Assembly: GCF_000800015.1 (NCBI RefSeq) | Contig: NZ_JUGR01000003.1 | Location: 124,001 to 188,000 of the forward strand | Length of the DNA stretch: 64,000 bases | Direction of reading: 5' to 3' | DNA from: Terriglobus sp. TAA 43 | GTDB taxonomy: Bacteria; Acidobacteriota; Terriglobia; Terriglobales; Acidobacteriaceae | Shown: piece after piece, positions 14,523 to 24,810 of the stretch | How positions within the stretch are numbered: position 1 is the first letter of the stretch | Layout: each line of letters opens with the position of its first letter | Notes under the pieces: generated by a model | Told to the model about the DNA's origin: nothing | Database searches by the model: none | Seen by the model: the letters and a program-made list of their open reading frames with translations, nothing else | Translations under genes and position numbers: made by a program

Positions 14523-15236
14523 TCAGCTTGTGAAACCTGTGTCGAACTCCGCGAAGTTATCAAGGTGGCTTTTTACGAGGCGATAGCATTCACAAGCCTG
14601 CTTCTCGAGTCCCTCCCTGTTCAAAATGCGGATTATTCCTCTGGAATACGTGATAAGTCCTAGAGATTTTAGCTTTCGCGCTGTGATGGTAACAGTGGGT
14701 CGGGCACTTCCCAACATCCCCGCCAAGAACTCTTGTGACAGCTTCAAGATGTCCTTCTGGGCACGATCAGAGCAGATAAGAATCCATCGCGCAAGCCGTT
14801 GCTCATGATTGTGATGGACGTTGCAGGCTGTGGACTGCGTGGCTTGAGTCAGTTGAGCCTGCACGTAGCGAAGTGCCAGATCGTGGAAATCTCCGTGGCG
14901 GCGGAACTCCTCCATTGCTGTAGCGAGTGCTGATGAATATCCGTGGCCGGCAAGTTGCATAAACACGCGATTCAAACTTTGCTTTGTACCCATGAGAGCA
15001 GAAACGCCAATCGCGGACTCGTAACCGAACATCCCGATCTCGACCTCAAACCCGTCCTTGAACACACTGGTCATGGATCCAATGCCCTCTTCGACAAAGA
15101 CCACATTACGGATACTCTTGCCCGGGCTTTCTACATCCTGTTCAAGCTTCAGTTCTATTGAACGAAGCTGAAGTCTCCGAATCGTTTCTGGGTGTAGGTG
15201 CTGAAGTATTGTGTTCCGGAACTCCTGTCTCTGCAT
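14523..15236 (-). CDS. Crp/Fnr family transcriptional regulator (copy 1)
   Basis: A 237-residue regulator with an N-terminal cyclic-nucleotide-binding-like beta-roll (VFVEEGIGSMTSVFKDGFEVEIGMFGYESAIGV) and a C-terminal winged helix (LSQEFLAGMLGSARPTVTITARKLKSLGLI). It lacks an obvious Cys cluster for an Fe-S centre, so it is not a classic FNR, and the ligand is unknown. The ATG at 15236 is chosen because GGAAGGGAA lies just upstream; the frame extends 18 codons further. It is the same length as copy 3 (16512-17225) and shares the ALMG-KQSLNRVFMQLAG block, so the two are close paralogues. Confidence 0.88.
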   Translation of the reverse strand: MQRQEFRNTILQHLHPETIRRLQLRSIELKLEQDVESPGKSIRNVVFVEEGIGSMTSVFKDGFEVEIGMFGYESAIGVSALMGTKQSLNRVFMQLAGHGYSSALATAMEEFRRHGDFHDLALRYVQAQLTQATQSTACNVHHNHEQRLARWILICSDRAQKDILKLSQEFLAGMLGSARPTVTITARKLKSLGLITYSRGIIRILNREGLEKQACECYRLVKSHLDNFAEFDTGFTS

Positions 15237-15625
15237 CGTTCCCTTCCTCTGTTCGGTTGGCCAGATGCTTAAGAAAGGAAGATATTGCAATCGCCGACTT
15301 CACTTGAGGTGCCTACGTCTCACGAAAGCCCATGTCGGGCATTACGCTGCGGACACTCGACGTCACACTTTGTAGTTCATCTGCCTACTCGGTCCAGACC
15401 ACACGCCTGTGAACTTCGGTGCGGTAACTGAAGTGTGTCTCAGTGAGTACAGGTCTGTCCGTGCGAACTCGCACTTATGGATGCGTGTTCAAATCTCAAA
15501 TCGAGTGAAGTGCGTGGCATATTCTGGATTTGTAAGCGGAGTCTGCCAACGTTCGCAATGTGCGCCTGTTTTCTTACGCGACAGTCCTTTCCGAAAACAA
15601 GGTCCGTGAATCGAGAGCCACGCAG
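15237..15625. other. Intergenic region between two Crp/Fnr genes
   Basis: About 390 bases upstream of Crp/Fnr copy 1 and downstream of copy 2. Short frames here are not convincing. It should contain the promoter of copy 1; I see no clear site. Confidence 0.4.
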
Positions 15626-16315
15626 CTATCTACCTTCCGCGGCAAGTCGCCGCACGATGGCGTAGCATTCGCATGCCTTTCGCTCCAGACCTCTGCGATT
15701 AAGAACTTTCATGTCACCGCGGCTGTAACTGATGACTCCCTCATGCCGCAGTCGTCGTGCGGCACGTGTGACTGTCGTTCGGCGCGTACCAAGCAGTTCC
15801 GCAAGGACATCCTGGGTAATCGGAAAGTTCTGCGCACCCAGGCGGTCCTGCATCATGAGCAGCCATCGAGCGATGCGCTGATCAACTTCATGGTGGCGAT
15901 TACACGCAGACAGTTGCTCCAAGATGAAGCTACGCCTTTGCACGTACGCAAGCACCACAGATCGCAACGGCCGATATTCCGTGAATTGAAGTTGCAACTC
16001 ACCGAGCCGGCAACGGATTGCCCGGCCCTCAATCTGCACCACGGCTCTTGCAGGAGAAGTCGATTGACCCAGAAGATGAGTCGCTTCAACAAGTCCCTCT
16101 CGCCCAACCGAAAAGATTTCGACGCCATCGCCGCTCTGAAAAGAATCGACGACGGAAATGGCTCCCGAAAGAACGAAGTGCGCGTGAGTCGGAACTCTTC
16201 CCGGTTCGAAAAGTACCGTTGAGACGGGAAGGGATACCTCTTCCATGCTGGCGATGAGTGCTTGACGATAAACGCGCGGCAACCTCTGCAGAAGCTCATT
16301 CGTCGTCTGGCGCAC
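15626..16315 (-). CDS. Crp/Fnr family transcriptional regulator (copy 2)
   Basis: A 229-residue Crp/Fnr-type regulator. The beta-roll sensor contains PTHAHFVLSGAISVV and VEIFSVGREGLVEATHLLG; the winged helix contains ITQDVLAELLGTRRTTVTRAARRL. It starts at a GTG (16315) preceded by a good AAGGAG ribosome site. It is more distant from copies 1 and 3 than they are from each other, but all three share the C-terminal pattern R-GLE-[KR]-ACECY-[AR]-[IL]-V. No Fe-S Cys motif is visible. Ligand and targets are unknown. Confidence 0.87.
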   Translation of the reverse strand: MRQTTNELLQRLPRVYRQALIASMEEVSLPVSTVLFEPGRVPTHAHFVLSGAISVVDSFQSGDGVEIFSVGREGLVEATHLLGQSTSPARAVVQIEGRAIRCRLGELQLQFTEYRPLRSVVLAYVQRRSFILEQLSACNRHHEVDQRIARWLLMMQDRLGAQNFPITQDVLAELLGTRRTTVTRAARRLRHEGVISYSRGDMKVLNRRGLERKACECYAIVRRLAAEGR

Positions 16316-16511
16316 GCAACTCCTTCGTCACGTCGCAAGAGATTGCCTAGAGAACCGGCGGCGAACAAACTTCTGACGGGAGCAGATGCGATGGCTCCGC
16401 TTCCAACCGTATGTTCGGTGTCAACAGCTGTCTGTCACTTGGCTGACTTAGTCAAGAGCACTACTGGAATATCTTGTTCCTGCATTCCCTCACGGGCAGC
16501 ACGCGATCGCG

Positions 16512-17225
16512 CTATGTGACGAACTCAGTATCGAACTGAGCGAAGCTTTCCAGATGATTTCGAACCACTCGATAGCATTCACAGGACTCGGCTTCCAGTC
16601 CACGCTTATCGATCAGGCGGATGTGTCCGCGGCTATAGTCTATGAGCCTCTTGGCTTTGAGGTGAGCAGCCGCTATCGAGACGGTCGAACGCGTGCTACC
16701 GAGCATCTCCGCAACAAACTCTTGTGGCAATTCAAGGGTGTCTTGAGCCGCTCGTTCCGAACAGATTAGCAGCCAACGCGCCAGGCGTTGCTCATAGCTG
16801 TGAGAGGAGTTGCATGCAGCATTTTGCATGGCGAGCGTGAGCTGAGCTTGGACGAAACGCAGCATTAGTCCTCGAAAATAAGCATTGCTCTCGAATTCCA
16901 CGAATGCAGTCTGTAGATTGCAGGTATAACCGGTTCCAGCGAGCTGCATGAATACGCGATTCAGACTTTGCTTAACCCCCATCAGTGCAGAGACGCCAAT
17001 CACTGACTCGTACCCAAACATGCTGACTTCTACCTGCGCCCCGTTCTCGAAACAGGTGGTCATCGATCCAATGCCTTGTTCCAAAAAACACAGGCACTGA
17101 ATGCGTTCACCAATGACGGCGAGATCCCGTCCCCGAGGGAGATCGACGCGATGGAGATTGAGTCGAGCGATGGTACTCGGCGGGAGACGCTTCAGCAAGG
17201 TGTTGGCAAATGTGAGGTTGTGCAT
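16512..17225 (-). CDS. Crp/Fnr family transcriptional regulator (copy 3)
   Basis: A 237-residue regulator that matches copy 1 over its full length (for example CFLEQGIGSMTTCFENGAQVEVSMFGYESVIGVSALMGVKQ compared in blocks, and LPQEFVAEMLGSTRSTVSIAA in the helix-turn-helix). An N-terminal cNMP-like domain is followed by a winged helix. The start ATG at 17225 has only a weak ribosome site. It faces a long intergenic region shared with a rightward DUF892-like gene, so it may control that gene. No effector can be assigned from sequence. Confidence 0.87.
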   Translation of the reverse strand: MHNLTFANTLLKRLPPSTIARLNLHRVDLPRGRDLAVIGERIQCLCFLEQGIGSMTTCFENGAQVEVSMFGYESVIGVSALMGVKQSLNRVFMQLAGTGYTCNLQTAFVEFESNAYFRGLMLRFVQAQLTLAMQNAACNSSHSYEQRLARWLLICSERAAQDTLELPQEFVAEMLGSTRSTVSIAAAHLKAKRLIDYSRGHIRLIDKRGLEAESCECYRVVRNHLESFAQFDTEFVT

Positions 17226-18844: not shown

Positions 18845-19087
18845 CTAGAGCAGTTCGGGCAAACCAAAGAGAACAGTAGTATGCAGTTCTGACGGGACCG
18901 ATGTTCCAGGAAATCGGCTTATGCCCCGGATCCTGCCTGCCTCAATACCCCGCAACGCTTCAGAAACACTGTCCTCGATCGGAAAGCCACCTCTATGAAT
19001 AAGACGAACACTTTGGGAGATGACCTGACACAGCATGAAGCGATTTGATATCTGCTCTAGAGAGCGGAATGTTTCGGCTGAACGCAT
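18845..19087 (-). CDS. RNA polymerase omega (RpoZ)-like small protein
   Basis: An 80-residue protein starting MRSAETFRSLEQISNRFMLC. Its N-terminal half parallels acidobacterial omega subunits (M-R-S-x-x-x-F-x-x-L-x-x-[VI]-x-N-R-[FY]-x-L-C, then a charged helix with a His and I-[QE]-D). Omega promotes assembly of RNA polymerase. The housekeeping copy normally sits beside gmk/coaBC, which are absent here, so this is likely a divergent second copy. It is the last gene of a leftward group with an orphan AtpH. The resemblance is by eye and needs a profile search. Confidence 0.5.
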   Translation of the reverse strand: MRSAETFRSLEQISNRFMLCQVISQSVRLIHRGGFPIEDSVSEALRGIEAGRIRGISRFPGTSVPSELHTTVLFGLPELL

Positions 19088-19252
19088 GCGAAACTCCAGA
19101 AGACCGTTGTGAGGTGGTGCGTTGAACTGCGCGGATACAACCAAGGGACAACGGATGGATTTGAAGCGTTTAGATACCACGCAGCGAAAGCTGAGGGCCC
19201 TCCGAGCAAGCATCAGACTATTGTTGCAAGCTACCCGAGAAAATAGCCAGAA

Positions 19253-19429
19253 TCACCTCGCAAAAAGACGCTTCCACCAGGGACGATCATGGTGGTTGAA
19301 CATTTCCGATGCGAATGCTGCTGCTTCTCGTTTTGATCTATCAAGCTGCGCACGCTGCGTCTGTAGGATTTCGCCTGCCGTTGGATACCAGCTAGGAATG
19401 TTCTTAACAGTGTCAGTCTTTTTGGACAT
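19253..19429 (-). CDS. Small hypothetical protein downstream of atpH
   Basis: A 58-residue basic protein (MSKKTDTVKNIPSWYPTAGE... ending HHDRPWWKRLFAR). It has a helical middle (RAQLDRSKREAAAFASEMF) and no membrane segment. An in-frame GTG at 19438 could be the start, only 7 bases after the atpH stop. The ribosome site is poor, and I recognise no family. Placement and strand suggest it belongs to the atpH transcript. Confidence 0.4.
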   Translation of the reverse strand: MSKKTDTVKNIPSWYPTAGEILQTQRAQLDRSKREAAAFASEMFNHHDRPWWKRLFAR

Positions 19430-19445
19430 CTTATTCACCGTGATT

Positions 19446-20003
19446 TCAGGCTGCTTTCAAAGTGGCAAGAAGAGTTGCCAACCGTTGTTTGACCGTGTCG
19501 TCCCATACCTGAGCCCCAATCTGCATGCGGATTCCGCCAAGAACAGATGGGTCTACGATATGAATGAGCCGTACTGTGGATCCTCTTTGCGAGGCAATCT
19601 GCGTCCGAAGCAACTGCATCTCTGTCTCAGCAAGTTGACGTGACGTCGTAATTTGAACCCGTTCGACGTGCCTTATCTCATCGGACAACGCATCGATAGA
19701 GTCCACGATGATAGAGAGGCTTCGCATAAGGTGCCGATCACTTAGTATGAAGAGGAGATTGCGAGTGAACGACCCCGTCTCCAATCGATCACAGAGGGAG
19801 GCGATGACAGAACGTCTCTCTGGCGCAGTGACCCATCGCGAATTCAGCGCCTTCTGTAATTCTGCAGACGCACTCAGTACGGCAGCAAATCCACGCAAAT
19901 TTCTTACATGCGTCTCCAATGAAGCATCGCCTTCTTGGTGGCGCACGGCTCCGAGGAATGCTCGTCCGTATCGCGATGCTCGAGATGAGCTCATTATTTC
20001 CAT
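19446..20003 (-). CDS. atpH: F1Fo ATP synthase delta subunit, orphan copy
   Basis: A 185-residue OSCP/delta subunit of ATP synthase. Family landmarks: SRYGRAFLGAVRHQEG near the N-terminus, RNLLFILSDRHLMRSL in the middle and the C-terminal signature DPSVLGGIRMQIGAQVWDDTVKQRL. Delta joins the F1 head to the peripheral stalk. In most genomes atpH lies between atpF and atpA; none of these is nearby. A GGAG sits 10 bases before the ATG at 20003, and a second ATG three codons in is also possible. It is either the only copy, displaced, or a divergent extra copy; the window cannot tell. Confidence 0.85.
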   Translation of the reverse strand: MEIMSSSRASRYGRAFLGAVRHQEGDASLETHVRNLRGFAAVLSASAELQKALNSRWVTAPERRSVIASLCDRLETGSFTRNLLFILSDRHLMRSLSIIVDSIDALSDEIRHVERVQITTSRQLAETEMQLLRTQIASQRGSTVRLIHIVDPSVLGGIRMQIGAQVWDDTVKQRLATLLATLKAA

Positions 20004-20082
20004 GACCGACGATCTCCATGAAGACTGCTTGCGACTCTACAAATTCGAACGCTCCCACTCGACAGCGAAGGTCTCGAGTCGC

Positions 20083-20496
20083 CTAACCGTTGACTAGATC
20101 CGGAGCGATCCTGAAGACCGCCTCGTCGACCAGCCCGAGGGACGCCCACTCCTGAATGTGTCGGGCGGCCAGCTTTACCTTTGCGACGTAAAATCCCGGA
20201 TATTTTCTCACCCTTACATCCATCAGCTCTGCCGTATTGAATCGGGGCTTGAGATCCTCGAGGCCTGAACGGATCGCTTTATCGAGTGCCGAAGTTCGAC
20301 TACGTCCAACTCCGATCCTCGTGGAATATAGCGCTAACCACATGAAGTGCCATCCCAGTTCGCGGATCCGTTGGTCCACCTTGTGTGCGGACTCAAACTC
20401 GGAGTTACTCCAACCGGCATAGCCGGGCTTGTCAGGAAAACTAAAATTTCTTGGGAAGCGAGTACCAGAACGAAAGAAAACGGAACCTGTAGTCAT
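20083..20496 (-). CDS. Conserved-looking hypothetical protein
   Basis: A 137-residue protein, first gene of the leftward group that includes atpH. It has aromatic-rich beginnings (FFRSGTRFPRNFSFPDKPGYAGWSN) and a central basic helix (SRTSALDKAIRSGLEDLKPRFN). There is no signal peptide, membrane helix or known motif. The ATG at 20496 has a GGAAGATC site upstream. The gap to atpH is about 80 bases. I cannot assign a function. Confidence 0.55.
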   Translation of the reverse strand: MTTGSVFFRSGTRFPRNFSFPDKPGYAGWSNSEFESAHKVDQRIRELGWHFMWLALYSTRIGVGRSRTSALDKAIRSGLEDLKPRFNTAELMDVRVRKYPGFYVAKVKLAARHIQEWASLGLVDEAVFRIAPDLVNG

Positions 20497-20836
20497 CCGG
20501 TTTGATCTTCCATTAACGGCAGTATTAATCGACCAACCGATTTTCTAACCAGGACCAGCGAAGGCTTTTCTACCGCAATCGCCTGGGAAGTTGCGTCGGT
20601 CTTTCGATCCGTGGGCGAAATCAACGGCGAGTGCTTGCGCGAGGCGGAAAGGTGGTTATGTACGTCAGACTTGTCTCTGCGACTCATGTCTACACCAGAG
20701 TTCCAGTTGCTTGCTTGGGAGGTGCTCGTCTGAAGCGAAGCGATGGTACTGCTGGAGGCGAGAAAGAATAGCTACTGCGCTGAGCTTACGCTCTTTATTT
20801 CGGCCTGCGCGCTTTTCAGCTGGTATGTCGTGCGTC
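20497..20836. other. Intergenic region, no gene seen
   Basis: About 340 bases between the hypothetical gene above and the end of the GH130 gene, all leftward. Short frames on both strands lack homology and ribosome sites. It probably carries the promoter for the atpH group. Confidence 0.4.
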
Positions 20837-21871
20837 TTACGATTCAGTTCCATCAGACAAAGTAATTGGTGCATTCGTTTCTAACCACGACAGCAGCTTA
20901 CGAATACTCCCTGTGGCCACGGCCATATAGGAATCTGCGGCACCGTAATAAAGACGGATCGTATCGCCATCGTCTTCAACAACCTGTCCACAAGGAAAGA
21001 CGACATCCTTCACATCACCATTTCGTTCATAAGGAGCTTCTGGTCCGAATATCCAAGCGTCGCCACGCTGAAGACATACTTCAGGGCGGTCGAGATCAAA
21101 CAAGGCTAACCCCAATCTGTAGATGCTTCCAGATGCGGTAGTACGGACACCGTGATAAATCACGAGCCACCCTTTTGCTGTCTCTATGGGAGGTGAGCAA
21201 AGCCCTATCTTATTTGCGTCCCACCAGCCGCCTTTCCGTGCCTCGAGCATCACCATGTGATCTCCCCAATGTCGAAGATCAGGAGAGTAAGAGATCCACA
21301 TATGAGCGCCCAGTGCCGTCATTGGACGATGTATCAGGGCCCATTTTCCATTGATCTTCCTTGGAAACAGTGCGGCGTCTTTGTCCTCAGGTGGCATGAT
21401 GACACCGTAACGATCGAACGTAACAAAGTCTGATGTCAGAGCCAGGGAGACTCCCGGACCTCCGCGAGCGAACGATGTGTACGCAACTGCGAACTGCTTG
21501 AGTTCTGGGACATACGTGATGCGTGGATCTTCGACACCCCATATCTCTTCAGGAAATTCCTTCGGCAACGCGGGCATGGTTGGTGTCCGATCGATCCTCC
21601 ATCTATCAATGCCGTTTGCGGACCTTGCGGCACAGAGATGAGAGAGTCCTCGCCTATCCTCAACACGACATAGCAGAAGCGTATCTCCATCCGGCAGCTT
21701 GACTGCGCCAGCATTGAAAACGCTATTGATGGGATAGGGCCAATCATTGGGGCCGAGGATCGGGTTCGCAGAATGCCGCTGAAACAGCGGTTCGTTCGCA
21801 AGTGTGCTGAGGCGTTCTGTCTCTCGGTCCGTGTGGGCCGAGGTAAAGCTGATCGGGGCTGTAGAACTCAA
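20837..21871 (-). CDS. GH130 family glycosidase/phosphorylase
   Basis: A 344-residue five-bladed beta-propeller of family GH130, whose members phosphorolyse or hydrolyse beta-1,2- or beta-1,4-mannosides. Family markers: NPILGPNDWPYPINSVFNAGAVK, LLCRVEDRRG, EIWGVEDPRIT with the catalytic Asp, and IYHGVRTTASGSIYRLGLALFDLDRP. No signal peptide, so it is cytoplasmic. Its start overlaps the stop of the GT4 gene as ATGA. The pair, one making and one breaking glycosidic bonds, suggests turnover of a mannose-containing oligosaccharide, which is inference from adjacency. Confidence 0.9.
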   Translation of the reverse strand: MSSTAPISFTSAHTDRETERLSTLANEPLFQRHSANPILGPNDWPYPINSVFNAGAVKLPDGDTLLLCRVEDRRGLSHLCAARSANGIDRWRIDRTPTMPALPKEFPEEIWGVEDPRITYVPELKQFAVAYTSFARGGPGVSLALTSDFVTFDRYGVIMPPEDKDAALFPRKINGKWALIHRPMTALGAHMWISYSPDLRHWGDHMVMLEARKGGWWDANKIGLCSPPIETAKGWLVIYHGVRTTASGSIYRLGLALFDLDRPEVCLQRGDAWIFGPEAPYERNGDVKDVVFPCGQVVEDDGDTIRLYYGAADSYMAVATGSIRKLLSWLETNAPITLSDGTES

Positions 21872-24201
21872 AGCGATGCACTCATTTCAGAAAGCTGTTG
21901 CGTTTCATTGGAAAGTTCCATGCCACGCAGTTCAAGAAGTGCCATGAGAAACGAAAGAGTCGATTCTGCTCCCTGATTCTCATTAACACGGTCTGGATGC
22001 AGGCCGTCCCTACAGCCACCTGTCGCGGCATCGTAGAGAGGAACCTGGAGATCGTTCTCGCCGAGAAACCAACGAAAGGCAACTCCTGCCTCGTCGAGCC
22101 AGGACTGCTCTCCGCTGATCTGGTGCGCGGTCATGCACGCTGAAACCGTCGCGCATGCTTCGACGGGTTGCTGATCAAATCTCTCCTTCTTCGAACCAGC
22201 AACAAATCCCATCGATCCCACGGGAACAAACACGCTATCGCTCTCACGATGTTGTTCTGCCAGCAGCCACCTCAAAGATTCAGTGCCAGCCTCTACCATC
22301 CGCTTGTTGTTACTCTTCCATCCAGCGAGGAGAAGCGCCTGCGGCAAGCGAGCGTTGGAATAGGACAAGTGTTTCTCAAACCAATACCAGTTATTGCCGC
22401 GTGTCTGATCGAAGATGCTCAACAGACGGTTTGCCAAGACGTTTCTCCAACCTTGGATTAACCGGTCACCGGGAAACCAATCGAGATAAGCCTGCATACC
22501 AAGCACTGAGAAGGCCCACGCGCGTGGACTACTGAAGGTAAGGCTAGAGGCGGCAGCAGCCTGGAACATCCTGCCGGCTGCGCCGCGAAGGCCGGCATGG
22601 CTCGAAGTGCCAAGCACGGTCCCGATCGCCCATAACGCACGACCATGACTATCTTCGGAGCCGGTCTCTTCTAGCCACGTTCGCCCATAGCTCAAGAAAT
22701 TCCGAAACCGACCAGTGTCATGACGGAAGGCAAGCCATAGAAAAGCCATGTATCGACAGGACAATGTTTCATACTCGACACTGCTCGATAGAGGAGATGC
22801 ATTCAACGCGTTGGCTACGATGAGTGCTCGTGCGTTGTCGTCCGTGGTGTAACCCTCTGAGCTGTTTGGCAGAGAGTAGATGGCATGCTGCAGAATGCCG
22901 GTGTCGTCTGTCATGGCGAAAAGGTGGCTCGTGTTGAGAAATGGCAGTCGATCCAAGGCGATGGTTTCTGCATCGCGGGGGGCCGGCCGCGGCCTTGACA
23001 TCCGCTCCGAGCGGGCTCTTTGAAAGCTTGCCATGTACGCCTGCGCGGTCATCTTCCATGTTGTGCCACGCGAATGGAGATAAGCACGTTTGCGCATCTG
23101 ATGCCGCAAAGCGTCGTTCGCGAGCAGAATGTTTACGCTTTCGGCGATGGAAGCCGGATCGTCGAATGGGACAATGATTCCTCGCTGATCGGTAAGCAAC
23201 TCTTTGGCGTGCCAATAAGGTGTCGAGATAATTGCCTTCCCCGCACCGAACGCGATAGCCAGCGTACCCGAAACAACCTGCGCCTCTTGCCGATAGGGAG
23301 TGATATAGATGTCAGCCGCGCCTACGTGTTCCATCAATTCTTCATTGCTCACGAAGCGGTTATCGAATATCACGTGTTCACTGACCCCAAGTGAGCTCGC
23401 GAGTTCAGTAAGCCCTGTTCGGTAGGCCTCTCCCTCAGACCTTCTGACGTGAGGATGGGTGGCACCTGAAATGATATAAACCACATCCGCGTTTTCTTTC
23501 AGAATGGCGGGCAAGGCACGGAGTACGTTCTCAATCCCTTTGTTTGGAGACAGCAAACCAAATGTGAGAAGAACCGACTGGCCTTCGACGTTGAAACGAT
23601 CTTTGAAGTAATTCGGGTCATTGAAGGGGAGATCGGGAACCCCATGCGGAATCAAGTCAATCTTGCTTGCAGGGACGTCATAGATTTCTTCTAGAAGATC
23701 TACCGCATGCTGACTCATCACCACGATGCGGTCGGAGATCCTCGCAATTTCTCGAAGGTTCGCCATTTGATCCAGGTTCGGCTCTCGCAGCACTGTATGT
23801 AGGGTTGTAACGATTGGCATCCGCAGCTTCCTAAGCAGCGTTAGGATGTGGCCACCCGCTGGGCCGCCGAAGATGCCGTATTCATGCTGTAGGCACACGA
23901 GATCGTTGCCGTTGAAGTTGAGAAAGTCAGCCCCGCGCTCATACGAGCTAACATCCTCTTGCTCTAATTCAAGGCGAACTCGCTCCGGGTACTGATAGTC
24001 CCCTCCCGGATCGTTGACCGGAATCGCGAACAACCTCTCTTCTCCAAACTCTTGTGCGATTGCGGTGCAAAGATCCGTGGTGAATGTCGCGATGCCACAT
24101 TGCCTGGGTAAGTAGTTGCCGATAAACGCGATTCGTGTGGGGAGCGGCAACGGCTGTGAGTTGCCGAGCTCAGAGAGGGCAGGAGCGATCTCATTGGACA
24201 T
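21868..24201 (-). CDS. GT4 glycosyltransferase with C-terminal alpha-toroid domain
   Basis: A 777-residue two-domain protein. Residues ~18-400 form a GT4 GT-B glycosyltransferase (FIGNYLPRQCGIATFTTDL; FGLLSPNKGIENVLRALP; the E-x7-E-like region in YRQEAQVVSGTLAIAFGAGKAII). Residues ~430-770 are a helical, (alpha/alpha)-toroid-like domain of the type found in glycosidases (SEGYTTDDNARALI, YWFEKHLSYSNARLPQALLLAG, NQGAESTLSFLMALLEL). It is translationally coupled to the GH130 gene. The likely role is synthesis or trimming of a storage or compatible-solute oligosaccharide; donor and product are unknown. Confidence 0.87.
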   Translation of the reverse strand: MSNEIAPALSELGNSQPLPLPTRIAFIGNYLPRQCGIATFTTDLCTAIAQEFGEERLFAIPVNDPGGDYQYPERVRLELEQEDVSSYERGADFLNFNGNDLVCLQHEYGIFGGPAGGHILTLLRKLRMPIVTTLHTVLREPNLDQMANLREIARISDRIVVMSQHAVDLLEEIYDVPASKIDLIPHGVPDLPFNDPNYFKDRFNVEGQSVLLTFGLLSPNKGIENVLRALPAILKENADVVYIISGATHPHVRRSEGEAYRTGLTELASSLGVSEHVIFDNRFVSNEELMEHVGAADIYITPYRQEAQVVSGTLAIAFGAGKAIISTPYWHAKELLTDQRGIIVPFDDPASIAESVNILLANDALRHQMRKRAYLHSRGTTWKMTAQAYMASFQRARSERMSRPRPAPRDAETIALDRLPFLNTSHLFAMTDDTGILQHAIYSLPNSSEGYTTDDNARALIVANALNASPLSSSVEYETLSCRYMAFLWLAFRHDTGRFRNFLSYGRTWLEETGSEDSHGRALWAIGTVLGTSSHAGLRGAAGRMFQAAAASSLTFSSPRAWAFSVLGMQAYLDWFPGDRLIQGWRNVLANRLLSIFDQTRGNNWYWFEKHLSYSNARLPQALLLAGWKSNNKRMVEAGTESLRWLLAEQHRESDSVFVPVGSMGFVAGSKKERFDQQPVEACATVSACMTAHQISGEQSWLDEAGVAFRWFLGENDLQVPLYDAATGGCRDGLHPDRVNENQGAESTLSFLMALLELRGMELSNETQQLSEMSASL

Positions 24202-24597: not shown

Positions 24598-24810
24598 CTA
24601 TCTCGTTTCCGGTAGAGGCTCAGAATCGTCTGTTTCCTGAATCGTTTGTAAGTCATCCACGAGGAGTTGTCCCTCCGTCGCTGCTGCCATTTCACTCGTC
24701 TGACCATCTCGGCCAGGAACATGCGGTGTTGGAAATGGCAGGATAATTCCTTTGCGCTTGGGGCTACGCGCAAGATGCTTTGAGACGTCGCTGCTACGAG
24801 GAACACTCAT
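24598..24810 (-). CDS. Small hypothetical protein (70 residues)
   Basis: Begins MSVPRSSDVSKHLARSPKRKG and ends with an acidic tail (DDLQTIQETDDSEPLPETR). The ATG at 24810 has GGAG 5 bases upstream; the frame extends to a GTG at 24915. The basic N-terminus and acidic C-terminus suggest a disordered protein. No family recognised. It is followed directly by the 92-residue gene. Confidence 0.45.
   Translation of the reverse strand: MSVPRSSDVSKHLARSPKRKGIILPFPTPHVPGRDGQTSEMAAATEGQLLVDDLQTIQETDDSEPLPETR

Follow-up and report, generated by a model that had tools for sequence, protein, structure and literature searches.

Extra genes for a divergent ATP synthase delta subunit and an omega-like protein share an accessory locus of Terriglobus sp. 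TAA 43

The window analysed here is a stretch of 64,000 nucleotides (C3:124001-188000) of the genome of Terriglobus sp. TAA 43 (G000 below; 4.95 Mb in 7 contigs). Unless a contig or locus is named, all positions are those of the window. Its minus strand carries, in this order, a glycosyltransferase gene (21868-24201, 777 residues; PF00534, 67.3 bits), the gene of a GH130 phosphorylase-like protein (20837-21871; PF04041, 172.5 bits), two small genes that overlap by 4 bases, P0005 (20493-20687) and P0002 (20083-20496, 137 residues), a gene for an orphan F1Fo ATP synthase delta subunit, i.e. an atpH paralog (P0001, 19446-20003, 185 residues; PF00213 and TIGR01145), the small gene P0003 (19253-19438) and an omega-like gene, P0004 (18845-19087, 80 residues; PF01192). 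Only 7 bases separate the delta gene from P0003 on the same strand. The locus is surrounded by genes for three Crp-type regulators, a response regulator, a fatty acid desaturase, a transaldolase and a manganese catalase. The three Crp-type genes are consecutive (14523-17225), and two of them show 68% DNA likeness over about 400 bases. A first-pass annotation had placed a delta gene, an RpoZ-like gene and two small hypothetical genes (19253-19438 and 20083-20496) together, far from their atp and gmk partners. This layout is indeed present, and both the atp operon (C1:1785744) and the gmk-rpoZ pair (C1:54521) are distant, on another contig.

Part of the locus has a recent history that can be read from the comparison with the sister species G005. 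In each of the ten 500-base windows between 15001 and 20000 the two genomes are 99.6-100% identical, while identity falls to 92-98% rightward over 20.0-25.4 kb and ranges from 90.8 to 99.6% to the left of 15.0 kb. Silent differences follow the same course, decreasing from 91 in the glycosyltransferase gene to 1 in the delta gene and 0 in the response regulator gene. The block around the orphan delta was probably exchanged recently between G000 and G005, and the identical delta proteins of the two species are therefore no evidence of selection.

Neither gene of interest is the only one of its kind in the genome. The annotation had considered displaced single copies, to be checked by a genome search for further atpH and rpoZ genes; both were found, an ordinary atpH within the atp operon and an ordinary rpoZ beside gmk, so that the delta and omega-like genes of the window are extra and the displaced-copy reading is ruled out. 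PF00213 has exactly two matches in G000, the operon delta and the orphan. The atp operon reads b'-b-delta-alpha-(short ORF)-gamma-beta-epsilon, with names given by eye and the places of alpha and beta taken from a PF00006 search. That search returned four places, which we read as alpha, beta, FliI (assigned by its neighbours) and Rho (assigned by its likeness to other rho genes). With one alpha and one beta only, there is no second F1 in G000, and a hidden second F-ATPase is excluded. Nor does any atp gene accompany the orphan among the ORFs of the window, as read by eye; the alpha and beta places are on C1. As for omega, G000 holds a canonical omega, one omega-like gene linked to rho and two accessory omega-like genes, that of the window included.

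The orphan delta is an intact, very divergent, extra gene. Its description as a complete delta gene is borne out by a full-length match to PF00213 (98.8 bits, cut-off 22.3) and to TIGR01145 (71.1 bits, cut-off 57.5); it scores under the cut-offs of the narrower NCBIfam delta models. In size, in this match and in the intact C-terminal signature GG...G...D..V...L it resembles the usual delta/OSCP subunit of F-type ATP synthases, from which it differs by having neither atp neighbours nor an F1 of its own. It shares 30% identity with the delta of the atp operon and keeps 24 of the 46 positions that are conserved at 80% or more in 43 other deltas. The 22 altered positions include an invariant Pro (residue 56 of P0001) and an invariant Arg (residue 92), and this loss of invariant positions is what one might expect if the gene were a relic, a transferred gene or fast-diverging duplicate that was kept by chance and gives no working subunit. 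The recent sharing of the tract between G000 and G005 also favours such a relic. Against it stand a reading frame free of stops and frameshifts despite divergence to about 30% identity, the PF00213 score together with the preserved C-terminal signature, and a ribosome-binding-like GGAG upstream of the start.

The distribution of the gene bears on the same question. Among the 19 genomes searched within the genus, only G000 and G005 have the orphan delta; the remaining delta rows of that search share 25-30% identity with it. A search of 300 genomes of the family at E <= 1e-19 gave no further orphan besides two rows at 31-32% identity, and one of 396 genomes of the phylum at E <= 1e-18 gave none besides four rows at 28-32% (71-74 bits), among which L035 adjoins atpA (the rest being L060-L062). 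Its presence in just two of the 396 genomes, these rows near 30% identity apart, again suits a relic. No relative was found by pattern scan in the genome_contigs and viral_contigs collections, and the plasmid collection contributed four distant matches of 22-30% identity. Two further matches of the delta searches, L024 and L025, sit in long frames of 441 and 502 residues whose products, judged by eye, resemble adenylosuccinate lyase. All in all, its sister copy apart, no delta recovered in these searches is more than about 32% identical to the orphan, which is seen in the two sister genomes only.

Extra deltas of another sort exist in the family. Among 200 family genomes, 183 had a delta match and six had at least two deltas (G000, G005, G124, G131, G205 and G169). 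In G124, G205 and G131 the second delta adjoins an atpA, as judged by eye, and belongs to a second F-ATPase locus; these genomes likewise carry a second delta within the same family, but the orphan of G000 has no such neighbour. G169 has three near-equal deltas; atpA accompanies the one at L243 and is absent from the ORFs selected at L246 and L251. At L250, in G131 (contig C18), a 295-residue protein that by eye resembles fused b and delta subunits adjoins atpA. In a tree of 44 rows, from which 8 of the 51 delta loci were left out, as from the alignment, since they gave no sequence, the orphan stands apart from every other delta on a branch of 4.0-4.7 changes per column, a length that also counts in favour of a relic. 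AU tests reject none of the groupings of the orphan that were compared, whether with the deltas of the genus (p 0.30), with those of G000, G005 and G013 (p 0.14) or with those of the family (p 0.205), so that duplication and transfer are both possible origins. We regard the relic as rather unlikely. On the reading that we prefer, the orphan could take the place of the housekeeping delta in the cell's single F1Fo, into which it would have to assemble.

Turning to the omega-like gene, the longest ORF spans 18845-19213, and the family alignment as well as a preceding ribosome-binding-like TGGAG place the start at 19087, which is residue 43 of that ORF. The protein then begins with MRS, as do 22 of 24 typed family sequences; one of the others begins with VRS, and one is an MES row with LRS a few residues on. 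Among 62 distinct named loci the MRS start is present in 57, and the other five have an AAG codon before RS, so that translation starts elsewhere in those. Cys20 is invariant in the 24 aligned members. Matches to P0004 occur in 280 of 300 family genomes (E <= 0.01), and a pattern scan found no viral source of the family. A paralog with 73% identity lies in G000 itself (C1:3169599; L083:9614-9853). Between these two accessory copies dN/dS is 0.09, with third positions accounting for 43 of the 70 differences; between the same two loci it is 0.14 for P0003 and 0.40 for the SDV protein. The low ratios and the third-position excess fit real genes under selection. The canonical rpoZ locus (L003) contains gmk, and P0004 does not match that locus. 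Across 38 omega-like loci, some of which overlap and many of which are only about 3 kb long, gmk had no match in 37 and one partial match (34%) in L083.

Whether this family is omega itself, in the sense of common descent, is a matter on which the evidence points both ways. The annotation's term RpoZ-like stands as a distant likeness; it fails as a formal assignment, since PF01192 gives 13.5 bits for the whole ORF and 13.9 bits for the 80 residues, under a cut-off of 26. Because P0004 was scored against this curated cut-off and falls short of it, we do not classify it as omega. The profile check which had been proposed turned out differently for the wider family and for the predicted fold of a relative, in both of which omega leads. 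In a diverse set of 24 members (A1), TIGR00690 (rpoZ) was matched by 11 at E <= 1 (best 0.0017), PF01192 (Rpb6) by six at the same limit (best 0.00041) and a second omega model by three, and no family outside omega was matched by more than two of the 24. When the profile of these members was searched against 177,635 PDB sequences, omega took ranks 1-11 and 19 of the 22 rows, with a best E of 0.044. In the alignment to 6alf_K, residues 15-17 carry an NRF motif in the profile and in omega alike. Furthermore, when a rho-linked relative was modelled (pLDDT 86) and compared with known structures by VIA-align, rows 1-35 were chains of 55-87 residues from RNA polymerase entries, with Z from 6.4 to 3.1 and alignments covering up to 67 of 71 residues, followed by an unrelated row at 2.5; these rows carry entry titles rather than chain names, and five of the chains, 6asx_K, 9gdo_E, 9gur_5, 6j9e_E and 7l7b_E, are omega according to the PDB profile search.

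These results have to be set against the possibility that the family is not homologous to omega and consists instead of small helical proteins of acidobacteria which work together with Rho or on the rho leader, their likeness to omega being due to convergence or chance. This would agree with the score of P0004 under the PF01192 cut-off and with the behaviour of the 30 canonical omegas of this group, whose profile did not score the family above shuffled sequences (best member 7.2 bits, best shuffle 8.0) and which hhalign related to it with a probability of 1.6% (p 0.032). It would also agree with the ambiguous outcome of profile searches for the rho-linked subfamily alone. There, a profile of six members ranked a CRISPR protein first and omega third and fourth (E 0.41 and 0.50), and in a set of 30 rows (29 members of the rho subfamily plus P0004) rpoZ was matched by three, RelB/ParD and BatA by four each, DUF3591 by 12, DUF7740 by six, MA3 by four and Rpb6 by one, with the E-value of P0004 itself. 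The structural significance is low as well: in the Foldseek search of the rho-linked relative, ranks 1, 2 and 4 are polymerase chains of omega size with E over 1, and the VIA-align Z stays under 8. The model of P0004 itself is poor (pLDDT 70.5), its matches listed being mostly potassium and receptor channels, and no omega stands in the best 50 of its 72 Foldseek rows or among the 50 VIA-align entries listed. Against the non-homologous reading stand the first place of omega in the PDB profile search, its lead among the rpoZ and Rpb6 counts for the diverse set, the filling of VIA-align rows 1-35 by omega-sized polymerase chains, and the shared position of the NRF motif. We consider this reading possible, at somewhat less than even odds, and hold homology of the family to omega to be fairly probable. 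The proteins resemble RpoZ in length, in an NRF or NRY motif at residues 15-17 and in the predicted fold of the relative. They differ from it in that P0004 is under the curated cut-off, in being encoded in addition to a canonical omega, in the absence of gmk linkage (one subfamily being linked to rho instead) and in the invariant Cys20 and the N-terminal MRS.

The linkage to rho emerged when six members that are closely related (A2) were used as queries in a scan; it gave 335 relatives, the best 80 of which were kept. The same downstream family, which we take to be rho, was present in 29 of the 33 distinct loci with enough flank. Rho follows the omega-like gene in 76 of the best 80 loci, a figure that describes the rho-linked subfamily, as the scan favoured it by design; the strand is the same in 76 of 76, and at the remaining four loci the contig ends 5 to 254 bases past the match. 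The gap between the two genes is 37-266 bases, with a median of 86 in the 59 loci measured. In G000 such a gene precedes rho on C2 (L039), and it is 36% identical to P0004 where the two align. Among the omega-like loci of the genome search, rho lies within the flanking sequence compared for only eight, that of G000 included, and the accessory copies are without it. In a tree of 31 rows, the 14 rho-linked members cluster (support 90/86). All 80 named loci bear acidobacterial names (Acidobacteria/Acidobacteriota, Acidobacteriales, Acidobacteriaceae, Terriglobia, Terriglobales and Ca. Sulfotelmatobacter), and we read the whole set as Terriglobia.

The window's gene is an accessory member of an acidobacterial, probably omega-fold family, one subfamily of which lies directly upstream of rho. 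The likeliest mechanism is that the omega-like proteins bind core RNA polymerase at or beside the omega site and modify transcription. For the rho-linked member, the unvarying presence of rho next to it points to a role in termination, and this member may be tied to Rho-dependent termination, and the accessory copies, found in variable loci, are putative condition-specific variants.

A more far-reaching proposal can be made from the N-terminus. The MAR motif of omega is tied to (p)ppGpp binding in PMC6416229. None of the 30 canonical omegas of this group has a MAR start, when starts are chosen by script and one row is without a start. In the MRS start of the omega-like proteins, an equivalent Arg may be in place; sequence and structure alignments to omega differ by one residue at that Arg. 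Terriglobia might then possess a second, exchangeable omega system, made of the rho-linked protein in most genomes and of accessory copies that swap with canonical omega, in which the MRS start would bring back a ppGpp site like that of the omega MAR motif and couple alarmone sensing to Rho termination. We regard this as improbable.

The small genes of the locus help to decide whether its members belong together. P0003 (61 residues, C-terminus ...PWWKRLFAR) has no Pfam or NCBIfam family and matches in six of 300 family genomes. P0002 belongs to a family present in 48 of 200 family genomes; as in the window, its relatives adjoin a glycosyltransferase gene, the same gene being nearby in seven of the eight loci read, and searches with 10 of 14 sequences turned up no notable relative in the PDB or Pfam, so that the family is not a known one. 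P0005 is of a recurring type starting with SDVxxHL, proteins of which are encoded beside omega-like or P0002 genes at 20493-20687, at 24598-24810 (minus strand, start computed; a paralog of the gene that opens the L083 cassette) and at L083:8961-9173. A DEHLxSKQ stretch lies upstream of these proteins in some loci. The segment 24727-24945 is 86% identical in DNA to L083.

It could be argued that the delta, P0003 and omega-like genes are one functional unit that alters ATP synthase and RNA polymerase jointly under stress. The genes are adjacent on one strand, with 7 bases between delta and P0003, and Crp-type regulators, a response regulator and a manganese catalase are close by. The paralogous cassette at L083 speaks against such a unit, as it consists of the SDV, P0003 (80% identical) and omega-like genes without any delta, and so do the P0003 relatives at L254-L256, which adjoin other genes. 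We consider joint action very improbable; that the delta and omega-like genes share a locus is probably due to rearrangement and not to a joint function. Their reading as alternative subunits that would tune the two complexes under stress, also offered by the first-pass annotation, is possible. The best overall explanation is that of two independent extra small-subunit genes in one accessory locus, with the roles proposed above, and we give it a probability of about one half.

The larger finding is the omega-like family with its rho-linked subfamily. Neither a rho-linked omega paralog nor an orphan atpH is named in the titles and abstract openings that were surveyed. The orphan delta raises the question of whether a cell with a single F1Fo can equip it with a second delta of strongly diverged sequence. 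Of the small polymerase subunits, omega has the least clear role; a paralog with the omega fold that is linked to rho throughout a bacterial group would, if true, offer a direct test of whether omega exchange changes transcription.
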